A stretch of 44,453 bases of DNA from Gammaproteobacteria bacterium (GTDB lineage: Bacteria; Pseudomonadota; Gammaproteobacteria; Pseudomonadales; Azotimanducaceae): NCBI GenBank assembly GCA_012961165.1, contig DTZW01000035.1, positions 1-44,453 of the forward strand, given 5' to 3'. The notes under the pieces were generated by a model. It did no database searches. It was not told the DNA's origin and saw only the letters and a list, made by a program, of their open reading frames with translations. The translations under genes were made by a program, and so were the position numbers. Below are positions 11,001 to 34,242 of this stretch, in pieces (the stretch's first letter is position 1; every line of letters begins with the position of its first letter).

Positions 11001-11954
11001 TCAAAGTGAGAGCTCCATATAGATATCCGCACGAGAATACACTGAAGGATCCGGAAACGGTTTTTCGGCAAACCCGAGTTTCCTGTAGAGACTAATGGCC
11101 GGCGTAAGCTTGCGGTTACTTTCCAGGACCAGCGCCTGGAAGCCTCTATCCCTCGCTCGGCCAATAATTGATTCGCCCAACAACAAACCTACCTGCTTTC
11201 CCCTCGACTGTTCTGAGACTGCCATTTTAGCGAGCTCCGCTCTTTCATCATCCAGGCGAATCAATGCACAGGTACCAATGACCTGCTCGCGACCCCGTGA
11301 CACTGCAAACAGAATCTCACCCCCCTGATCGATGATTTTTCCGGCAGGGTCATCCAACACCTGGCGATCTGCATCTTCCAACCTGAAGTAATGCTCAATC
11401 CAGGCGGTATTCAGCGATCGAAACGCGGCGGCATGGTCGGGGTTAAAGGCTCGTATCTCCACTTCTTCGTTATCTTTGCCCTGCTGGTCCCTAAACCGGC
11501 TGACAAAATCCTGTCTGGCAAAACTCTTTTCCAGGGCAGTTAACTGGCCGATGAAATCTCCCCCGCATTCATCTACTGCTGTTTGGAGCGCCTGCCTTAT
11601 GTCTCTCCATGTAGGCTCAAGCCCGTGGTACCGCTCACGCCCAGAGCTAGTAAGTGCTAACACACGCTTACGCTTGTCGTTTCTGTCGCGGTAAGGGGCA
11701 ACGAGGCGTACCTCGATTAATTCATTGGCAATCTTGTTGATGCCCGGATGAGACACGCCCAGACCTTTCGCCAGGCCGGTGATTGAAGTTGGCCCCTTCT
11801 TGTACAGATAGGAAAACACAGGAAACCATCGCGGTTCAAAACCCGGCTGAACCTCTTCATAGATCCTGCTCCCACCCTGCATCAGCGCATCGGCGAGTCG
11901 CTTCAGGCGACCGCCCAGCGCCAACGCGCCGAGTTCTTCCAATAGGTCATCCAT
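11001..11954 (-). CDS. MarR-type HTH fused to GNAT N-acetyltransferase (bifunctional regulator/acetyltransferase)
   Basis: N-terminal wHTH (GPTSITGLAKGLGVSHPGINKIANELIEVRLVAPYRDRNDKRKRVLALTSSGRE) and C-terminal GNAT (AVSEQSRGKQVGLLLGESIIGRARDRGFQALVLESNRKLTPAISLYRKLGF). Confidence 0.9.
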   Translation of the reverse strand: MDDLLEELGALALGGRLKRLADALMQGGSRIYEEVQPGFEPRWFPVFSYLYKKGPTSITGLAKGLGVSHPGINKIANELIEVRLVAPYRDRNDKRKRVLALTSSGRERYHGLEPTWRDIRQALQTAVDECGGDFIGQLTALEKSFARQDFVSRFRDQQGKDNEEVEIRAFNPDHAAAFRSLNTAWIEHYFRLEDADRQVLDDPAGKIIDQGGEILFAVSRGREQVIGTCALIRLDDERAELAKMAVSEQSRGKQVGLLLGESIIGRARDRGFQALVLESNRKLTPAISLYRKLGFAEKPFPDPSVYSRADIYMELSL

Positions 11955-25955: not shown

Positions 25956-26734
25956 CAGTAGCGCAATCTGACTTTGACACCCTGCTCATGCAGCCACTGC
26001 TTTAAACCGGACACCGTATAGTCGCCATAGTGGACCATAGAGGCAACGAGCGCTGCGTCCGCTTTACCTTCGGTAAGGACCTCAAGCAAGTGCTCCGGTT
26101 TCCCGGCCCCACCGGAGGCAATGACCGGAATTGAAACCGCTTCAGAGATCATTCGCGTCAGGTTAATCTCATAACCTTCCCGGGTTCCATCTGCATCGAT
26201 CGAATTAACAACCAGTTCACCCGCACCTAGTTCTTCACCCTTGAGCGCCCATTCCAGCGCATCGACACCCATGGGGGTACGTCCGCCATTGATAATGACT
26301 TCGTAGCCACTCGGGAACTCCCTTGAAGTTTCGACCCTTAAAATATCCATCGAGAGCACTGTGTTTTGAGTACCAAACGCATGGGCACACTCTGCAATCA
26401 ATTCAGGGCGCTTGACCGCAGCAGAGTTCACATTGATTTTTTCTGCGCCGGCCCAGAGCAATTTGTTGGCATCTTCAACCGTTCGCACTCCGCCACCGAC
26501 CGAGAAAGGAATGTAAACCTGTTTCGCCACCTGTTCCACAACATCCAGCATGATGTTCCTGGCATCGCTGGAAGCTGTAATGTCATAGAACACCAGTTCG
26601 TCCAGGCCATCCTCGTAGTATTCCCGGGCCTTTGACACAGGATCACCAATGTCTTTCGTATCAACAAACTTGACGCTCTTGGCCAGCTTGCCATCTCGCA
26701 CATCCAGACAGGCAATGATTCTCTTACTTAGCAT
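25955..26734 (-). CDS. hisF: Imidazole glycerol phosphate synthase cyclase subunit HisF
   Basis: [59 protein letters not shown]. Start at ATG 26734. Confidence 0.93.
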
Positions 26735-27348
26735 GTTGCATCCCAATGTTTAAATGCACCAAGCAGCTTTAGACCCAGCGCACCACTTTTCTCCAGGTGG
26801 AACTGAGTGGCAAACAGGTTTTCCCTGGCGATCACAGAACAGAATGTCTTGTCGCCGTATTCTGTGGTTCCTACCATATGATTACTGTTGACTGGCCGAG
26901 CAAAATAGCTATGGACGAAATAGAACTCATCCCCTGACTGAATATTTTCCAACATCGGGTGTGGTCGATTGATCGTCAATTCATTCCAGCCGATATGTGG
27001 CACCTTAAGGGATCTATCGGAGAACTCGAATCTTTCGGACGCTCCTTCCACTAGCCCAAGGCAGGTTTTGTCGCCTTCCTCGGTATGCTCAAGCACAATC
27101 TGCAAACCCAGACAGATGCCCAGCAACGGTTTCCCTGTTGCATAGAAAGATTTTATTGCCTCATCAAGCCCCCGGTCGCAAAGGGTATCCACGGCACTCT
27201 TCGCCGAACCTACACCCGGGAAAATCAACTTGTCTGCAGCCGCAACGACAGCCGGATCAGCCGATATCTCGGCGTCCATACCGACATACTGACAGGCACG
27301 CTGAACACTGCGTACATTCCCTGCATCATAATCCACGATGACCAGCAT
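26728..27348 (-). CDS. hisH: Imidazole glycerol phosphate synthase glutaminase subunit HisH
   Basis: [42 protein letters not shown]. Confidence 0.94.
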
Positions 27349-27747: not shown

Positions 27748-29625
27748 ATGCGGTTACCAACACTGGTGATGGTTCTATTCCTGCTTGGCGGTTGTCAGGA
27801 AGCATCTGAATCGAACAGTTCCCCCACCGCCCAGGATTCTGGTACACCAATTCTGGCAGTGCCGGCACCCGCTGGCCCGCGGGGAGAAAAGCACGCCCTG
27901 TTTGGTGACTTGCACGTGCACACCATGTACTCATTTGACGCTTTTGTGATGGGCACATTGGCATCGCCTGACGCTGCCTATGACTTTGCCAAAGGCGGAG
28001 TATTAACACATCCGGGCGGATTCGACATGCAATTAGATGTGCCCCTGGACTTCTACGCCGTCACGGATCACGCTTTCTACCTGGGCGCGTTACGTAGTAT
28101 GACGGTTAAGGGCAATGCGCTGTACGAACATGAACTTGCTGAGGGCGTTCGCAATCTGTCTAATGAAAAATCCCGGGGGGCTGCGTTCGCCACGATGCTT
28201 GCGTTTCTTGGCTCAGAACGCCGTGCAGAACTCATTGACCCGGTGTCTTCAACCAGTGCGTGGGATGATATTAAGGCTGCCGCGAATCGCCACAATGATC
28301 CCGGTAAATTCACAGCTTTTCTGGGATATGAATACACCTCATCAGGCGATGCGTTTGAAAATCTACACAGGAACGTCATCTTTAAAGGGGATACTGCGCC
28401 GGACTTGCCATTTTCAAGACTGGACTCCAGGAACCCTGAAGAGTTGTGGCGATGGATGGATGAGCAACGCCTCGCCGGATACGAGTCGCTGGCGATGCCC
28501 CACAATTCAAATGGTTCCAATGGCTGGATGTTTAGTCTGACGGATTTTGATGGCAAACCACTCGATAGTGACTACGCAGATCTGCGTATGCGCAATGAGC
28601 GCCTGGTAGAAAATTCGCAAGTTAAAGGCACTTCAGACACTCACCCTGCTTTGTCACCCAATGATGAGTGGGCGGACTTTGAAATAATGAAAGTCAGAAT
28701 CGCCTCGAACCTGGCAAGCCAACCACAGGGCAGTTACGTGCGCGAAGCGCTACGAAACGGCATCGAATTTCAGGCGAAGAAGGGTTTCAATCCATTTAAG
28801 TTCGGCGTGATTGGCTCAAGCGACACACACAATGCATCTTATGCGGGCGCGGAAGATAACTACTGGAGCAAGATTGGCAGGCTCGATGATGAACCCGTTG
28901 AACGCGGCTCAGTTCCGCTGGCACAACCCGCAGAAGATGGTTCAGTGTACCTTAAGACCTACCGAAACCAGTGGAGCGCCGGTAGCCTGGCTGGTGTCTG
29001 GGCAGAGGAAAACACTCGTACAGCTATCTACGACGCATTGCATCGCAAGGAGACGTTTTCAACTTCCGGTACCAGAATTCAGGTTCGATTCTTCGCCGGC
29101 TATGACCTGCCAGCACCAGATGCCAGTGACTTAATTGATAAAGCCTACGCTGGCGGTGTCCCTATGGGCGGTGAACTTGTGGCAGAGGCAGGCCAATCAC
29201 CGAGCTTTTTGGTATGGGCGTTACAGGACCCCAATAAGTCCGCGCTGCAACGAGTGCAAATTATTAAAGCCTCCGTCCGTGACGGGAACTCCTCTGAGAA
29301 GGTTTTTGATGTCGCCTGCTCCGACGGAGCAAAGGTAAATCCTCAGACGCACCGCTGTCCCGATAACGGTGCCAGAGTAAATCTCACAGATTGCACCGTC
29401 AGCACGGGGGTTGGTGATCCCGAAATGCTTGTACGCTGGGTGGACCCGGAGTTTGACGAATCCGAGCACGCAATGTACTACGTACGGGCGCTGGAGAATC
29501 CAGTTTGTCGATGGTCAACGTGGGATGCGCTGCGGTCCGGCGTTGAACCGAATCCTGCCCTGTCTGCGACTATCCAGGAGCGGGCCTGGACTTCTCCGAT
29601 TTGGTTCAGCCCAGCCTCAGAGTAG
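27748..29625 (+). CDS. DUF3604 domain-containing lipoprotein (PHP-like metal-dependent fold)
   Basis: Lipobox LFLLGGC; FGDLHVHTMYSFDAFVMG, FYAVTDHAFYLG, FTAFLGYEYTS, FGVIGSSDTHNA. Confidence 0.9.
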   Translation: MRLPTLVMVLFLLGGCQEASESNSSPTAQDSGTPILAVPAPAGPRGEKHALFGDLHVHTMYSFDAFVMGTLASPDAAYDFAKGGVLTHPGGFDMQLDVPLDFYAVTDHAFYLGALRSMTVKGNALYEHELAEGVRNLSNEKSRGAAFATMLAFLGSERRAELIDPVSSTSAWDDIKAAANRHNDPGKFTAFLGYEYTSSGDAFENLHRNVIFKGDTAPDLPFSRLDSRNPEELWRWMDEQRLAGYESLAMPHNSNGSNGWMFSLTDFDGKPLDSDYADLRMRNERLVENSQVKGTSDTHPALSPNDEWADFEIMKVRIASNLASQPQGSYVREALRNGIEFQAKKGFNPFKFGVIGSSDTHNASYAGAEDNYWSKIGRLDDEPVERGSVPLAQPAEDGSVYLKTYRNQWSAGSLAGVWAEENTRTAIYDALHRKETFSTSGTRIQVRFFAGYDLPAPDASDLIDKAYAGGVPMGGELVAEAGQSPSFLVWALQDPNKSALQRVQIIKASVRDGNSSEKVFDVACSDGAKVNPQTHRCPDNGARVNLTDCTVSTGVGDPEMLVRWVDPEFDESEHAMYYVRALENPVCRWSTWDALRSGVEPNPALSATIQERAWTSPIWFSPASE

Positions 29626-29627
29626 GC

Positions 29628-30404
29628 ATGATGCGTTGGCTTCGTGAACCGGTTCTGTGGTTTTGTTTGATCGGAGCATTGCTGTTTACCGCCAATCATC
29701 TGCAACAGACGGATCGTATTGTTATTGATGATGCGGTGCGCGCTCGTATCTCTGCGCTATGGCAAGCACAAATGAATCAGCCGCCGACGGAACCTGAATT
29801 ACAATCATTAGTTGATGCCTGGCTCCGGCAAGAGGTGTTGTACCGTGAAGCAGTGCGGCAGGGACTGATGGAGGATGACGATATTGTGCGCCGCAGACTT
29901 GTACAGAAGCTGGGCTTTCTACATCAGTTTTCCGAAGACACACCTGTGAGCCAATCTGAACTCGACGCTTACTACCAGGCGAACATTAAGCGATACACGC
30001 TGCCACAGCGATACAGTTTCAAACAGATTTATCTGTCGAACCCTTTATTGGTTGCATCTGTTCACTCCAGTCTGTTGGCCGGTGAGGACTGGCAAGACCT
30101 GGGCGGTGCCACGCTATTACCGCGGACTTACTTGTCCAAAAATGCGCGTGAAATAACTGTTTTATTGGGGGCCGAGTTCGCATCGCAATTGTCAGAGCTA
30201 GTAGCCGCGAGTTGGACAGGGCCTTATAAAAGCAGTTATGGACACCATCTGGTTTATCTCGAGGAACGCATCGCACCCGAGGCAACGCCACTTTCCTACA
30301 TTACGACAAAAGTTCGCGCAGATCTGATCAGGCAGAAATCCGAAAAGGCCGCCGATGCTCTCTATAGGCAACTACTGAAGCGCTATGACGTGGTCCATCG
30401 TTAG
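29628..30404 (+). CDS. Membrane-anchored parvulin-type peptidyl-prolyl cis-trans isomerase
   Basis: N-terminal TM; LVDAWLRQEVLYREAVRQGLMEDDDIVRRRLVQKLGFL, YSFKQIYLS, GPYKSSYGHHLVYLEER. Confidence 0.85.
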   Translation: MMRWLREPVLWFCLIGALLFTANHLQQTDRIVIDDAVRARISALWQAQMNQPPTEPELQSLVDAWLRQEVLYREAVRQGLMEDDDIVRRRLVQKLGFLHQFSEDTPVSQSELDAYYQANIKRYTLPQRYSFKQIYLSNPLLVASVHSSLLAGEDWQDLGGATLLPRTYLSKNAREITVLLGAEFASQLSELVAASWTGPYKSSYGHHLVYLEERIAPEATPLSYITTKVRADLIRQKSEKAADALYRQLLKRYDVVHR

Positions 30405-31400
30405 ATGAGATGGCTCGTTTTACTGGTGTGCGTGTCCTCCTGCCGGTTGTTTGCTCATGAAGTTCAGCCTGCTGTATTGCAGTTGACCCAGGCTGGCAAT
30501 GGTGTCGATTGGGAAGTCCTGTTTAAACAGCCATACAAACAATCACGGATAGGAGGTGGCTCGTCCTCTTTAAGAGCATTCGATCTGGCCGTGATCACCA
30601 ATTGTGTTGCATCCAAGGGGCGCCAGCGCACTAGCGGTGTGATGCTCGAGCAGAGGTTTACTCTGGAATGCATCGATGCGCCGCTGTCAGTGATGAGTAT
30701 CAAAGGTATTGAGCAGACATTGGTCGACGTTATCGTTACCGTGAACTACAGGCAAGCGGCCACAACCCGTTACCTGTTGAATGCACGCCAGCCAACCATC
30801 GAGTTTTCATCTGACACCGCCGTCCCGATTTTCCTCTTACTTGGAATTGAGCATTTACTACTCGGTTTTGATCATGTGTTGTTTGTGCTGGTGCTTTTGT
30901 ATCTCGTGCCTGGTTGGAAAACCCTGCTTGGCGTGGTGACAGCATTCACCGTTGCGCATTCGCTGACGCTTGGTTTGTCAGCATTTCAGTTGATCACCAT
31001 ACCTCAGGCGCCGGTTGAGGCACTAGTCGCTCTTAGTATTGTACTGCTGGCGCGAGAAGCGTTATCTTCAAAGCGCACGCTGATACGCGCCCAACCGTGG
31101 TTAGCAGCATTTGCATTCGGCCTGCTGCATGGCCTGGGGTTTGCGGGCGCATTGTCAGCAATTGGATTACCGGATGAAAATGCAGTTGGCGCATTGTTCC
31201 TGTTTAACGTTGGCATCGAGCTTGGACAGCTGACGATCCTCGGTCTGGTGTTTGCTTTGGTTTTCGTTGGCGCCCGATTTGGCCTAAAAGTGACGTTGCA
31301 TTCATGGCAGCCCATGGGGTTAATGCAAGTTCCCTTGTATCTGGTGGGTGGGATATCTACGTATTGGTTTGTTGAGCGATGTGTGCAGATAGTGGGTTAG
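30405..31400 (+). CDS. HupE/UreJ family membrane protein
   Basis: Signal peptide; FLLLGIEHLLLGFDHVLFVLVLLYL, TAFTVAHSLTLGLSA, FGLLHGLGFAGAL. Confidence 0.9.
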   Translation: MRWLVLLVCVSSCRLFAHEVQPAVLQLTQAGNGVDWEVLFKQPYKQSRIGGGSSSLRAFDLAVITNCVASKGRQRTSGVMLEQRFTLECIDAPLSVMSIKGIEQTLVDVIVTVNYRQAATTRYLLNARQPTIEFSSDTAVPIFLLLGIEHLLLGFDHVLFVLVLLYLVPGWKTLLGVVTAFTVAHSLTLGLSAFQLITIPQAPVEALVALSIVLLAREALSSKRTLIRAQPWLAAFAFGLLHGLGFAGALSAIGLPDENAVGALFLFNVGIELGQLTILGLVFALVFVGARFGLKVTLHSWQPMGLMQVPLYLVGGISTYWFVERCVQIVG

Positions 31401-31440
31401 CGGGGCATTACCCAGGTCTTCACAAACCAGTATTTCGTTT

Positions 31441-31460
31441 TGTATCACAATAGTGATACA
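31441..31460. promoter_or_regulatory. Perfect palindrome TGTATCAC-AATA-GTGATACA, candidate operator of the GntR-PurM gene
   Basis: 8-bp perfect arms ending 9 nt before ATG 31470; an extra half-site TGTATCA lies at 31464-31470. Possible -35 TTCACA at 31419-31424. Confidence 0.65.
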
Positions 31461-31469
31461 GTTTGTATC

Positions 31470-32876
31470 ATGAAAATAAGCGTTCAAACCAGCATTGCAG
31501 CACCAGTCTTCCAGCAAATTGTCGACCAGGTCCATTTCGCTATTTCTGCCGGTGAATTATTGCCTGGTGAGCGCCTTCCCAGCATCCGCGCTGTCGCAAC
31601 GGAGCTCGGCATTGCGCCGAATACAGTGGCCAAGGCTTATCGCCAACTGGAATTTCGCGGCCTGATTACCGCGCACGACCGTTCAGGTTACTCGGTTCTG
31701 GCAGCAGTACCCGACAGCCGCTATCAGGCCAGGGGTGTAAGCGCGGACAAGACGGAAGTCCATAACGCCGTGGATAAACTTGAACAGGGCCTCTTTCCAG
31801 GTGCGTTCTGCAAAGTGACCGAAGACTTCCTTTCCGGTGACCCTGCAAAGTGCAATGTTATTCATGCCGATGGTGCGGGAACAAAATCGATAGTCGCCTA
31901 CCTTTGGTACAAGGAAACCGGTGATGCTTCTGTCTTTCGCGGCATCGCACAAGACAGTATTGTCATGAACCTGGATGACCTGCTTTGTGTTGGCGTGAAC
32001 GGCAGGATCCTTATTTCCAATACTGTTAACCGCAACGCACTGAACTGCCCGGGAGAAGTTATTTCCGAGCTCATCGACGGCACTGAAGCATTTCTCGAGT
32101 CCATGAGAGAACATGGCATCAACATTTATTCGGGTGGCGGTGAGACGGCAGACGTCGGCGACCTGACAGGAACCCTGGTTGTGGATTCCTGTGCAGTGGC
32201 GGTCATGGACAAGGCAGATGTCATCACAAACGATATCACCCCGGACCTTGCGATCATCGGGCTATCTTCTATCGGCCAGGCAAATTACGAACAACATGCC
32301 AACAGCGGTATGGGCAGTAACGGCCTGACAAATGCGCGCCATGACATGCTTTCCTCCCATTACGCCGACAACTATCCTGAGGCTTTCGACGCCAACCTGG
32401 ACCCTTCACTTGTTTACTGCGGGCCATATCGACTGTCTGACTCACTGCCTGGCAGTGAGTTTTCCGTTGGCGAGGCCATCCTTTCACCCACAAGAACCTA
32501 TGCCCCAGTCATCTATCAACTAAGAGAAGCACTGGGGGATCATGTTAAAGGGGTCATTCACTGTTCCGGTGGTGCGCAGACAAAATGCCTGCGGTTCGGC
32601 ACCGGCGTACATTACATCAAGGATAGTCTCTTCGAGGTCCCGCCTCTGTTCTCCGCGATTCAGGCTGTCTCTGGAACCGGATGGGAAGAGATGTTTAAGG
32701 TTTTCAATATGGGACACCGGATGGAAGTTTACCTGCCCCGGACAAAAGCAGATGAAGCAATACGGATTGCATCCGGGCTCGGTATCGACGCAAAAGTGAT
32801 CGGACATACAAAAGTGGCGGATGGCCCCAACGCACTCACACTGACCGATACCGCCGGACGCCAGTTCCGGTACTAG
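31470..32876 (+). CDS. Fusion protein: N-terminal GntR (YtrA-like) winged HTH + AIR synthase (PurM)-related enzyme domain
   Basis: Residues 1-78: [53 protein letters not shown]; residues 83-468: [85 protein letters not shown]. One uninterrupted frame. Confidence 0.9.
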
Positions 32877-32988: not shown

Positions 32989-34242
32989 ATGGCCCAGATA
33001 GAATTTGAAGAATGCTTGCGAATTCTTGTAGAGAAGGAGGGCTCTGACCTTTATTACAGTGTCGGCGCACCCCCGTCCGCCAAGTTTCATGGCACCCTGA
33101 ATCAGATTTCCGATATTCCCATGCTGCCAGGTGAAATCGCAGTAATCGCCAACAGTGTGATGACTGAAGAGCAGCGAAATGCCTTCGAGGATAACCCTGA
33201 GTGTAACCTCGCTATTTCCCGGAGTGGCCTTGGCCGGTTTCGGGTCAACATTTTCAAACAGCGTAATGAATACTCCATGGTCATCCGGCGACTCGGTGAC
33301 AGCCTGCCAAACCACAAAGACCTGGGACTGCCTCCCGTTCTGCCAAAGCTCATCATGTCCAAGCTGGGTCTAATACTGTTTGTTGGCGGAACCGGTTCCG
33401 GTAAGTCTACATCCATGGCTGCGCTAATTGATTACCGCAACCAAAAATCCAAAGGGCACATCATCACGATTGAAGACCCTGTCGAATTCACGCATCCCCA
33501 TAAGGGTTGCATCGTCAACCAACGTGAAGTGGGTTCTGACACCAACAGTTGGCATGAAGCATTGGCCAACACACTGCGCCAGGCGCCTGACGTGATACTG
33601 ATTGGTGAGATACGGCACCAGGAAACCATGGAGCATGCCATGGCCTTTGCAGAAACAGGCCACCTTTGCCTCTCTACCCTCCACGCTAATAATTCTAACC
33701 AGGCGATGAACCGGATAATCAACTTCTTCCCTAAAGAACGTCACACCCAGCTTCTAAAGGATCTGTCACAGAATCTGCGAGGCATCATTTCCCAGCGCCT
33801 GGTTAAAACAGTCGACGGTAAACGTGCTGCGGCGATTGAAATACTGCTGGGGACCCCGCGGGCTGCTGACCTTATTGCAAAAGGCGATGTCGGTTCTCTC
33901 AAAGAGTTAATGGAGAAATCACCCGAACAGGGTATGCAGACCTTCGATATGGCCCTGTTCAAACTCTATAAATCAGGGCAAATCACACTTGAGGAAGCAT
34001 TAAAAAATGCAGACTCCAAGAACAACCTCCGATTGAGAGTCACTCTGGACGCTAAGAAACCTCAGGGAAAAGGCAAAGAAGCAACCAGCCAAGCAGCACC
34101 ACCCAAAGCAGCCACACCGCCGCGCGCCAAGTTTAACGTGGCGGGGGAGAAACCAGCCAAGGAAGAGGCACCAGCCGAAGGTATGGAAGGGTTCTCCCTA
34201 CTGTCCATCGAAGAAGAAGAAGAAGAAAACCCATCGGATTAG
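32989..34242 (+). CDS. pilU: PilT/PilU-type retraction ATPase (PilU-like) with C-terminal Ala/Lys/Pro-rich and poly-Glu extension
   Basis: FEECLRILVEKEGSDLYYSVGAPPSAKFHG, Walker A GGTGSGKST, VNQREVGSDT, LRQAPDVILIGEIR, AETGHLCLSTLHANN; tail ...GMEGFSLLSIEEEEEENPSD. Confidence 0.88.
   Translation: MAQIEFEECLRILVEKEGSDLYYSVGAPPSAKFHGTLNQISDIPMLPGEIAVIANSVMTEEQRNAFEDNPECNLAISRSGLGRFRVNIFKQRNEYSMVIRRLGDSLPNHKDLGLPPVLPKLIMSKLGLILFVGGTGSGKSTSMAALIDYRNQKSKGHIITIEDPVEFTHPHKGCIVNQREVGSDTNSWHEALANTLRQAPDVILIGEIRHQETMEHAMAFAETGHLCLSTLHANNSNQAMNRIINFFPKERHTQLLKDLSQNLRGIISQRLVKTVDGKRAAAIEILLGTPRAADLIAKGDVGSLKELMEKSPEQGMQTFDMALFKLYKSGQITLEEALKNADSKNNLRLRVTLDAKKPQGKGKEATSQAAPPKAATPPRAKFNVAGEKPAKEEAPAEGMEGFSLLSIEEEEEENPSD

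Follow-up and report, generated by a model that had tools for sequence, protein, structure and literature searches.

Can an enzyme of purine synthesis also regulate its own gene? Enzymes that double as regulators include BirA, PutA and the enzyme-derived MocR regulators, but de novo purine synthesis has no such case that is known to us. The question is raised by a gene within the 44,453-nucleotide stretch of DNA analyzed here (the window), in which a GntR/YtrA-type winged helix continues in frame into a divergent AIR synthase (PurM). PurM catalyzes step five of purine synthesis, and here what is apparently the only such enzyme bears its own regulator domain. For uncultured marine bacteria of a large group, the locus offers a first candidate for how purM is controlled. 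Features of the gene and its upstream region are collected in Table 1.

Table 1 Features of the fused gene and its upstream region, in window coordinates.
Feature	Position	Strand	Basis
Possible promoter TTCACA-18-TATCAC, -10 overlapping the left operator arm	31419..31448	+	inference
Candidate operator TGTATCAC-AATA-GTGATACA, perfect 8-bp arms, motif conserved upstream of fused genes	31441..31460	.	
Extra half-site TGTATCA reaching into the start codon; shared with one near relative but not a general feature	31464..31470	+	
Fused gene, GntR/YtrA-type winged helix plus divergent AIR synthase (PurM), 468 aa	31470..32876	+	
GntR winged-helix DNA-binding domain, residues 15-76, recognition motif LPSIR...NTV intact	31512..31697	+	Pfam, alignments
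Divergent PurM half, residues 81-468, end-to-end alignment with 3mdo/3kiz	31710..32873	+	
AIRS N-terminal domain, residues 126-245, motifs DGAGTK, NLDD and GGETAD	31845..32204	+	
AIRS_C domain, residues 279-448	32304..32813	+	Pfam, alignments

The fused gene and its enzyme half

Translation gives a reading frame from ATG 31470 to TAG 32876 without an internal stop. Since a longer frame starting at TTG 31440 would traverse the conserved operator described below, we regard ATG 31470 as the right start. The original prediction, made from the letters of the sequence, described a complete winged helix fused in frame to a full-length PurM, and all three Pfam domains were indeed found above their curated cut-offs: GntR (PF00392) with 8.9e-14 and 51.3 bits (cut-off 27), AIRS (PF00586) with 33.7 bits (cut-off 24) and AIRS_C (PF02769) with 27.9 bits (cut-off 23.1). 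The protein accordingly belongs to the GntR family as well as to the AIR synthases. Because the same full-length frame recurs in independent assemblies of many species, the fusion is not a frameshift artefact. These assemblies, together with pairwise dN/dS values of 0.01-0.17 for the DNA-binding domain and 0.03-0.12 for the PurM half, rule out a fusion created by sequencing error. Both halves are under purifying selection. Two of the outcomes named beforehand as fatal to the prediction, a sequencing error and a domain missed by the HMM search, were thus not encountered. A structure predicted from 20 homologues has a mean pLDDT of 84.9 and a pTM of 0.77; it is confident across most of both halves, with low confidence mainly at the domain junction (residues 80-105).

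The closest solved structures of the enzyme half are 3mdo (residues 81-464) and 3kiz (residues 83-468), both Bacteroidota proteins described as 'putative phosphoribosylformylglycinamidine cyclo-ligase'. The enzyme half resembles them over the full length, with ~50% identity, TM-scores of 0.95-0.97 and common motifs. Superposition of the predicted structure on 3mdo gives a TM-score of 0.97; next come authentic AIR synthetases, among them those of Pyrococcus and E. coli. The suggestion that this half is of a Bacteroidetes-like type therefore holds for the solved structures, but the nearest homologues outside the family of the window are of the Verrucomicrobiota type, with up to 65% identity.

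Against the canonical purM equivalog, NCBIfam TIGR00878, the fused protein reaches 87.6 bits, well under the cut-off of 236.35. By sequence it is a divergent PurM form, like the stand-alone proteins of the five genomes examined for them. Within the family of the window, the 57 genomes with a divergent PurM yield weak TIGR00878 matches alone (best E about 1e-9 to 1e-27), and the other 150 contain a match over the cut-off in 138 cases, a weaker or partial one in 4 and none in 8. The original prediction had proposed a search for a canonical purM elsewhere in the genome. None exceeds the TIGR00878 cut-off, ruling out a second, canonical PurM in the window's genome, and none of the 207 family genomes carries both forms. 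Apart from the fused protein, the window's genome gave two AIRS-domain hits, namely ThiL and an oxidoreductase/SelD-type fusion. Outside the family, all five examined genomes with the stand-alone form likewise have no PurM over the TIGR00878 cut-off, and 1 of 14 controls fails too. PurL is present in 57 of 58 relatives and PurN over its cut-off in 52 of 58, so the steps preceding PurM exist. Since the divergent form never stands beside a canonical PurM and PurL and PurN are kept, the fused protein is very likely a working AIR synthase, and very likely the only one of the cell.

The proposed catalytic residues of E. coli PurM are Asp94, His247, Thr249 and Arg259 (PMC5919458). In an alignment the first three correspond to D170, H364 and S366 of the fused protein. 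Arg259 has no exact counterpart; the nearly invariant K372 lies nearby and may stand in for it. The catalytic motifs are conserved in fused and stand-alone divergent PurM alike.

Two family genomes, G577 and G578 (each a single contig, ~98% complete), contain neither a PurM match at E <= 1e-8 nor a divergent PurM; they are possibly purine auxotrophs or possess an AIR synthase of an unrecognized type. In the window's genome, a pyridine nucleotide-disulfide oxidoreductase fused to a SelD-type AIRS protein is encoded at L002 839-2995.

Distribution and history of the fusion

How widespread the fusion is had been set as a check, and we found it in 45 genomes of one marine Pseudomonadales family, that of the window, at 55-97% identity. 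Divergent PurM occurs in 57 of the 207 genomes of this family; the match spans the winged helix in 45, and the remaining 12 are stand-alone or fragments. Nearly all genomes compared are metagenome-assembled, and the named carriers are MAGs of marine Gammaproteobacteria/Pseudomonadales, including a K189A-clade genome. Among 369 genomes sampled from the class, no full-length fusion was detected outside the family. Among 338 genomes from the phylum of a Verrucomicrobiota locus there were 22 divergent PurM proteins, and among 345 from the phylum of a Bacteroidota locus there were 75, in both cases with no match running through the winged helix (0/97 for the samples of these two other phyla). The structural homologs 3mdo and 3kiz are stand-alone as well. 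Since the genome sets are samples and a loose first screen can miss cases, rare fusions elsewhere are possible. A search of an open-access library found no paper describing a PurM/winged-helix architecture, and the fusion appears to be undescribed so far.

In a phylogenetic tree, all fused PurM halves fall on one side of a branch with support of 97/90, and the fused and stand-alone members of the family group together with support of 92/95 (not starred). The simplest account is that a stand-alone divergent PurM was acquired, the canonical gene was then lost, and a YtrA-type domain was gained once together with its operator. Biotin protein ligases exist in forms with and without a DNA-binding domain (PMC4016012, PMC6978683), and divergent PurM is similar to them in this respect. 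Genome G557 has two fused copies (L199 and L200), one curtailed near a contig end, and may be a strain mixture.

A candidate operator and the DNA-binding domain

The palindrome upstream of the fused gene ends nine bases before the ATG. For each of 45 distinct fused genes we scored the best TGTATCA-N6-TGATACA match in the 200 nt upstream; it has at most four mismatches in 41 genes and at most two in 38. In a base-shuffled control, only 9 of 10,800 upstream regions reached two mismatches or fewer. When 34 distinct sites are compared, TGTA and TACA hardly vary, whereas the centre is unconstrained. The distance from operator to ATG ranges from 9 to 83 nt and the flanking sequences differ among the fused genes, so the conservation reflects more than shared regional ancestry. 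A consensus promoter scan of the upstream region gave no result above chance.

YtrA regulators recognize long palindromes in which GT and AC lie at a distance from the centre (Suvorova et al., PMC4494728). The candidate operator has the same architecture, and with its winged helix the fused gene is YtrA-like on both counts. Moreover, a YtrA-like GntR regulator in another family genome (L202 2533-2997), standing upstream of ABC-transporter genes, has two sites that are each one mismatch from the consensus. The nearly identical site at a separate YtrA-like regulator suggests the origin of the fused domain, and the YtrA-like assignment made in the original prediction fits both this regulator and the operator architecture. 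The two-helix C-terminal part of YtrA proteins comprises about 50 aa, and these proteins mostly control ABC-transporter operons (PMC4494728). The fused protein differs in having a 390-aa PurM at this position, and its apparent target is its own gene. Lacking the two-helix part, it does not count as a YtrA protein.

The 4 of 45 fused genes that have no operator are exactly those with a decayed DNA-binding domain. In these genes (L071-L074 in G007, G012, G002 and G015; assemblies of 1.1-2.7 Mb) the LPSIR and NTV residues are gone, and the three that were scanned fall below the PF00392 cut-off or give no match. As judged from these sequences, the clade apparently lost the regulatory half and kept PurM. 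We also examined nine stand-alone divergent purM genes from the window's family, and none has the operator upstream. All nine come from one genus, whose fused genes do have the operator, and in the two stand-alone cases with listed flanks the gene lies, as the fused ones do, at a hisF-hisH / PilT-like locus. Operator absence rests on two clades and hence on few independent events; the co-occurrence of operator and domain is a correlation across few clades that is consistent with putative binding. One family thus offers natural comparative controls: no domain and no operator, intact domain with operator, and decayed domain with the operator gone. Together with the YtrA-like regulator bearing nearly the same site, they allow a direct test of the general question of how an enzyme can turn into a transcription factor.

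Proposed mechanism and rival readings

Taking the observed fusion, its conservation, the replacement of canonical PurM and the co-occurrence of the operator with an intact domain as a basis, we infer a model that places catalysis, DNA binding, repression and possibly ligand dependence in one polypeptide. With a probability of roughly 0.78, the sole AIR synthase autoregulates its own promoter and represents a BirA/PutA-like trigger enzyme assembled from new parts. The fused protein would catalyze FGAM + ATP -> AIR as the only PurM of the cell. Because canonical PurM forms homodimers (PMC5919458), one particle could carry two winged helices, which would let the dimer bind the 20-bp palindrome beside its own start codon. 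The PurM dimer would then take the place of the short C-terminal dimerization segment of YtrA regulators. Binding at this position, probably over the putative promoter, would most likely repress the gene's own transcription; because the distance from operator to ATG varies and the promoter is not firmly placed, the sign is not fixed. In the manner of BirA and PutA, purM expression would then follow enzyme level and possibly also substrate/ATP occupancy.

Since a matching DNA target lies beside its own gene, the enzyme very probably regulates its own synthesis. An autoregulated enzyme was one of the possibilities raised in the original prediction, and it gains support from the operator's co-occurrence with an intact domain. 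Combining an enzyme and a probably sequence-specific DNA-binding domain with its target site, the single polypeptide would count as a trigger enzyme. By analogy, a dependence of DNA binding on FGAM, ATP or AIR is plausible. The full version, in which bound FGAM and/or ATP (or AIR) changes how the YtrA-type domain binds DNA, so that flux at the purine/thiamine branch point is read and purM transcription adjusted without a separate purine repressor, has in our estimate slightly less than an even chance.

In a narrower form of autoregulation, the protein would simply repress itself without ligand input and the fusion would merely hold PurM abundance constant. We consider this a tentative possibility, clearly short of even odds. 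No good site was found at purL or purN in 16 loci of fused genomes, and a pattern search with one mismatch detected no shared second target. In the window's genome, the sole other site with at most one mismatch in the pattern search sits inside a coding sequence. The lack of a conserved site at purL or purN and of a shared second target argues against a purine-wide regulon. Self-control is favored by this apparent lack of other targets, and a single self-target with no other conserved operator found is in agreement with plain autorepression. The precedents argue against it, as BirA and PutA are enzymes that also repress their pathway operons (PMC6978683). The fused protein is similar to BirA, a group II biotin protein ligase, and to PutA as a metabolic enzyme that would double as a DNA-binding repressor. 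It differs from them in that enzyme and pathway are unrelated and in that the bio and put operons are repressed there, whereas its own gene is the sole apparent target here.

The palindrome might instead form an RNA hairpin (terminator or attenuator) or belong to a divergent hisH promoter, which we think very unlikely. A terminator-like stem is called at 31440-31461, but the palindrome has no Rfam match, and an RNA element was rejected on this ground. The same motif also occurs at the promoter of the YtrA-like regulator, and genes with no domain or a decayed one do not have it. A role at hisH would fit several other genera, where hisH and the fused gene are direct divergent neighbours; in the window, hisH (26728-27348, - strand) and the fused gene are separated by three genes (27748-31400), possibly a lineage-specific insertion. 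Both these three intervening genes and the fact that the site remains with the fused gene where other genes part it from hisH weaken the reading as an operator for hisH.

It is also highly improbable that the PurM half of the proposed autoregulator is a ligand sensor alone, like the aminotransferase half of MocR, with AIR made by another enzyme. MocR/GabR regulators do provide a precedent, since in them, too, a GntR winged helix is joined to an enzyme fold (PMC6917764, PMC8739950). Theirs is a C-terminal PLP aminotransferase fold, whereas the fused protein has PurM, which sets it apart from MocR proteins and is apparently the sole catalyst of its step: no other PurM candidate was found in the window's genome, no family genome has both forms, and conservation of the catalytic motifs extends across fused and stand-alone forms. 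Described MocR/GabR operators include direct repeats (PMC4494728). A vestigial winged helix, or one with a role in folding or oligomerization only, is hard to credit. Decay of the domain in one small-genome clade speaks for it, but elsewhere the recognition residues are conserved and under purifying selection, and retention of the operator coincides exactly with an intact domain.

Directly downstream of the fused gene, the window encodes a PilT/PilU-family pilus ATPase (32989-34242). Such an ATPase adjoins fused or stand-alone PurM in many family genomes, and co-transcription is possible. Elsewhere in the window, an ORF at 11001-11954 resembles, by eye, a MarR-type regulator fused to a GNAT acetyltransferase.
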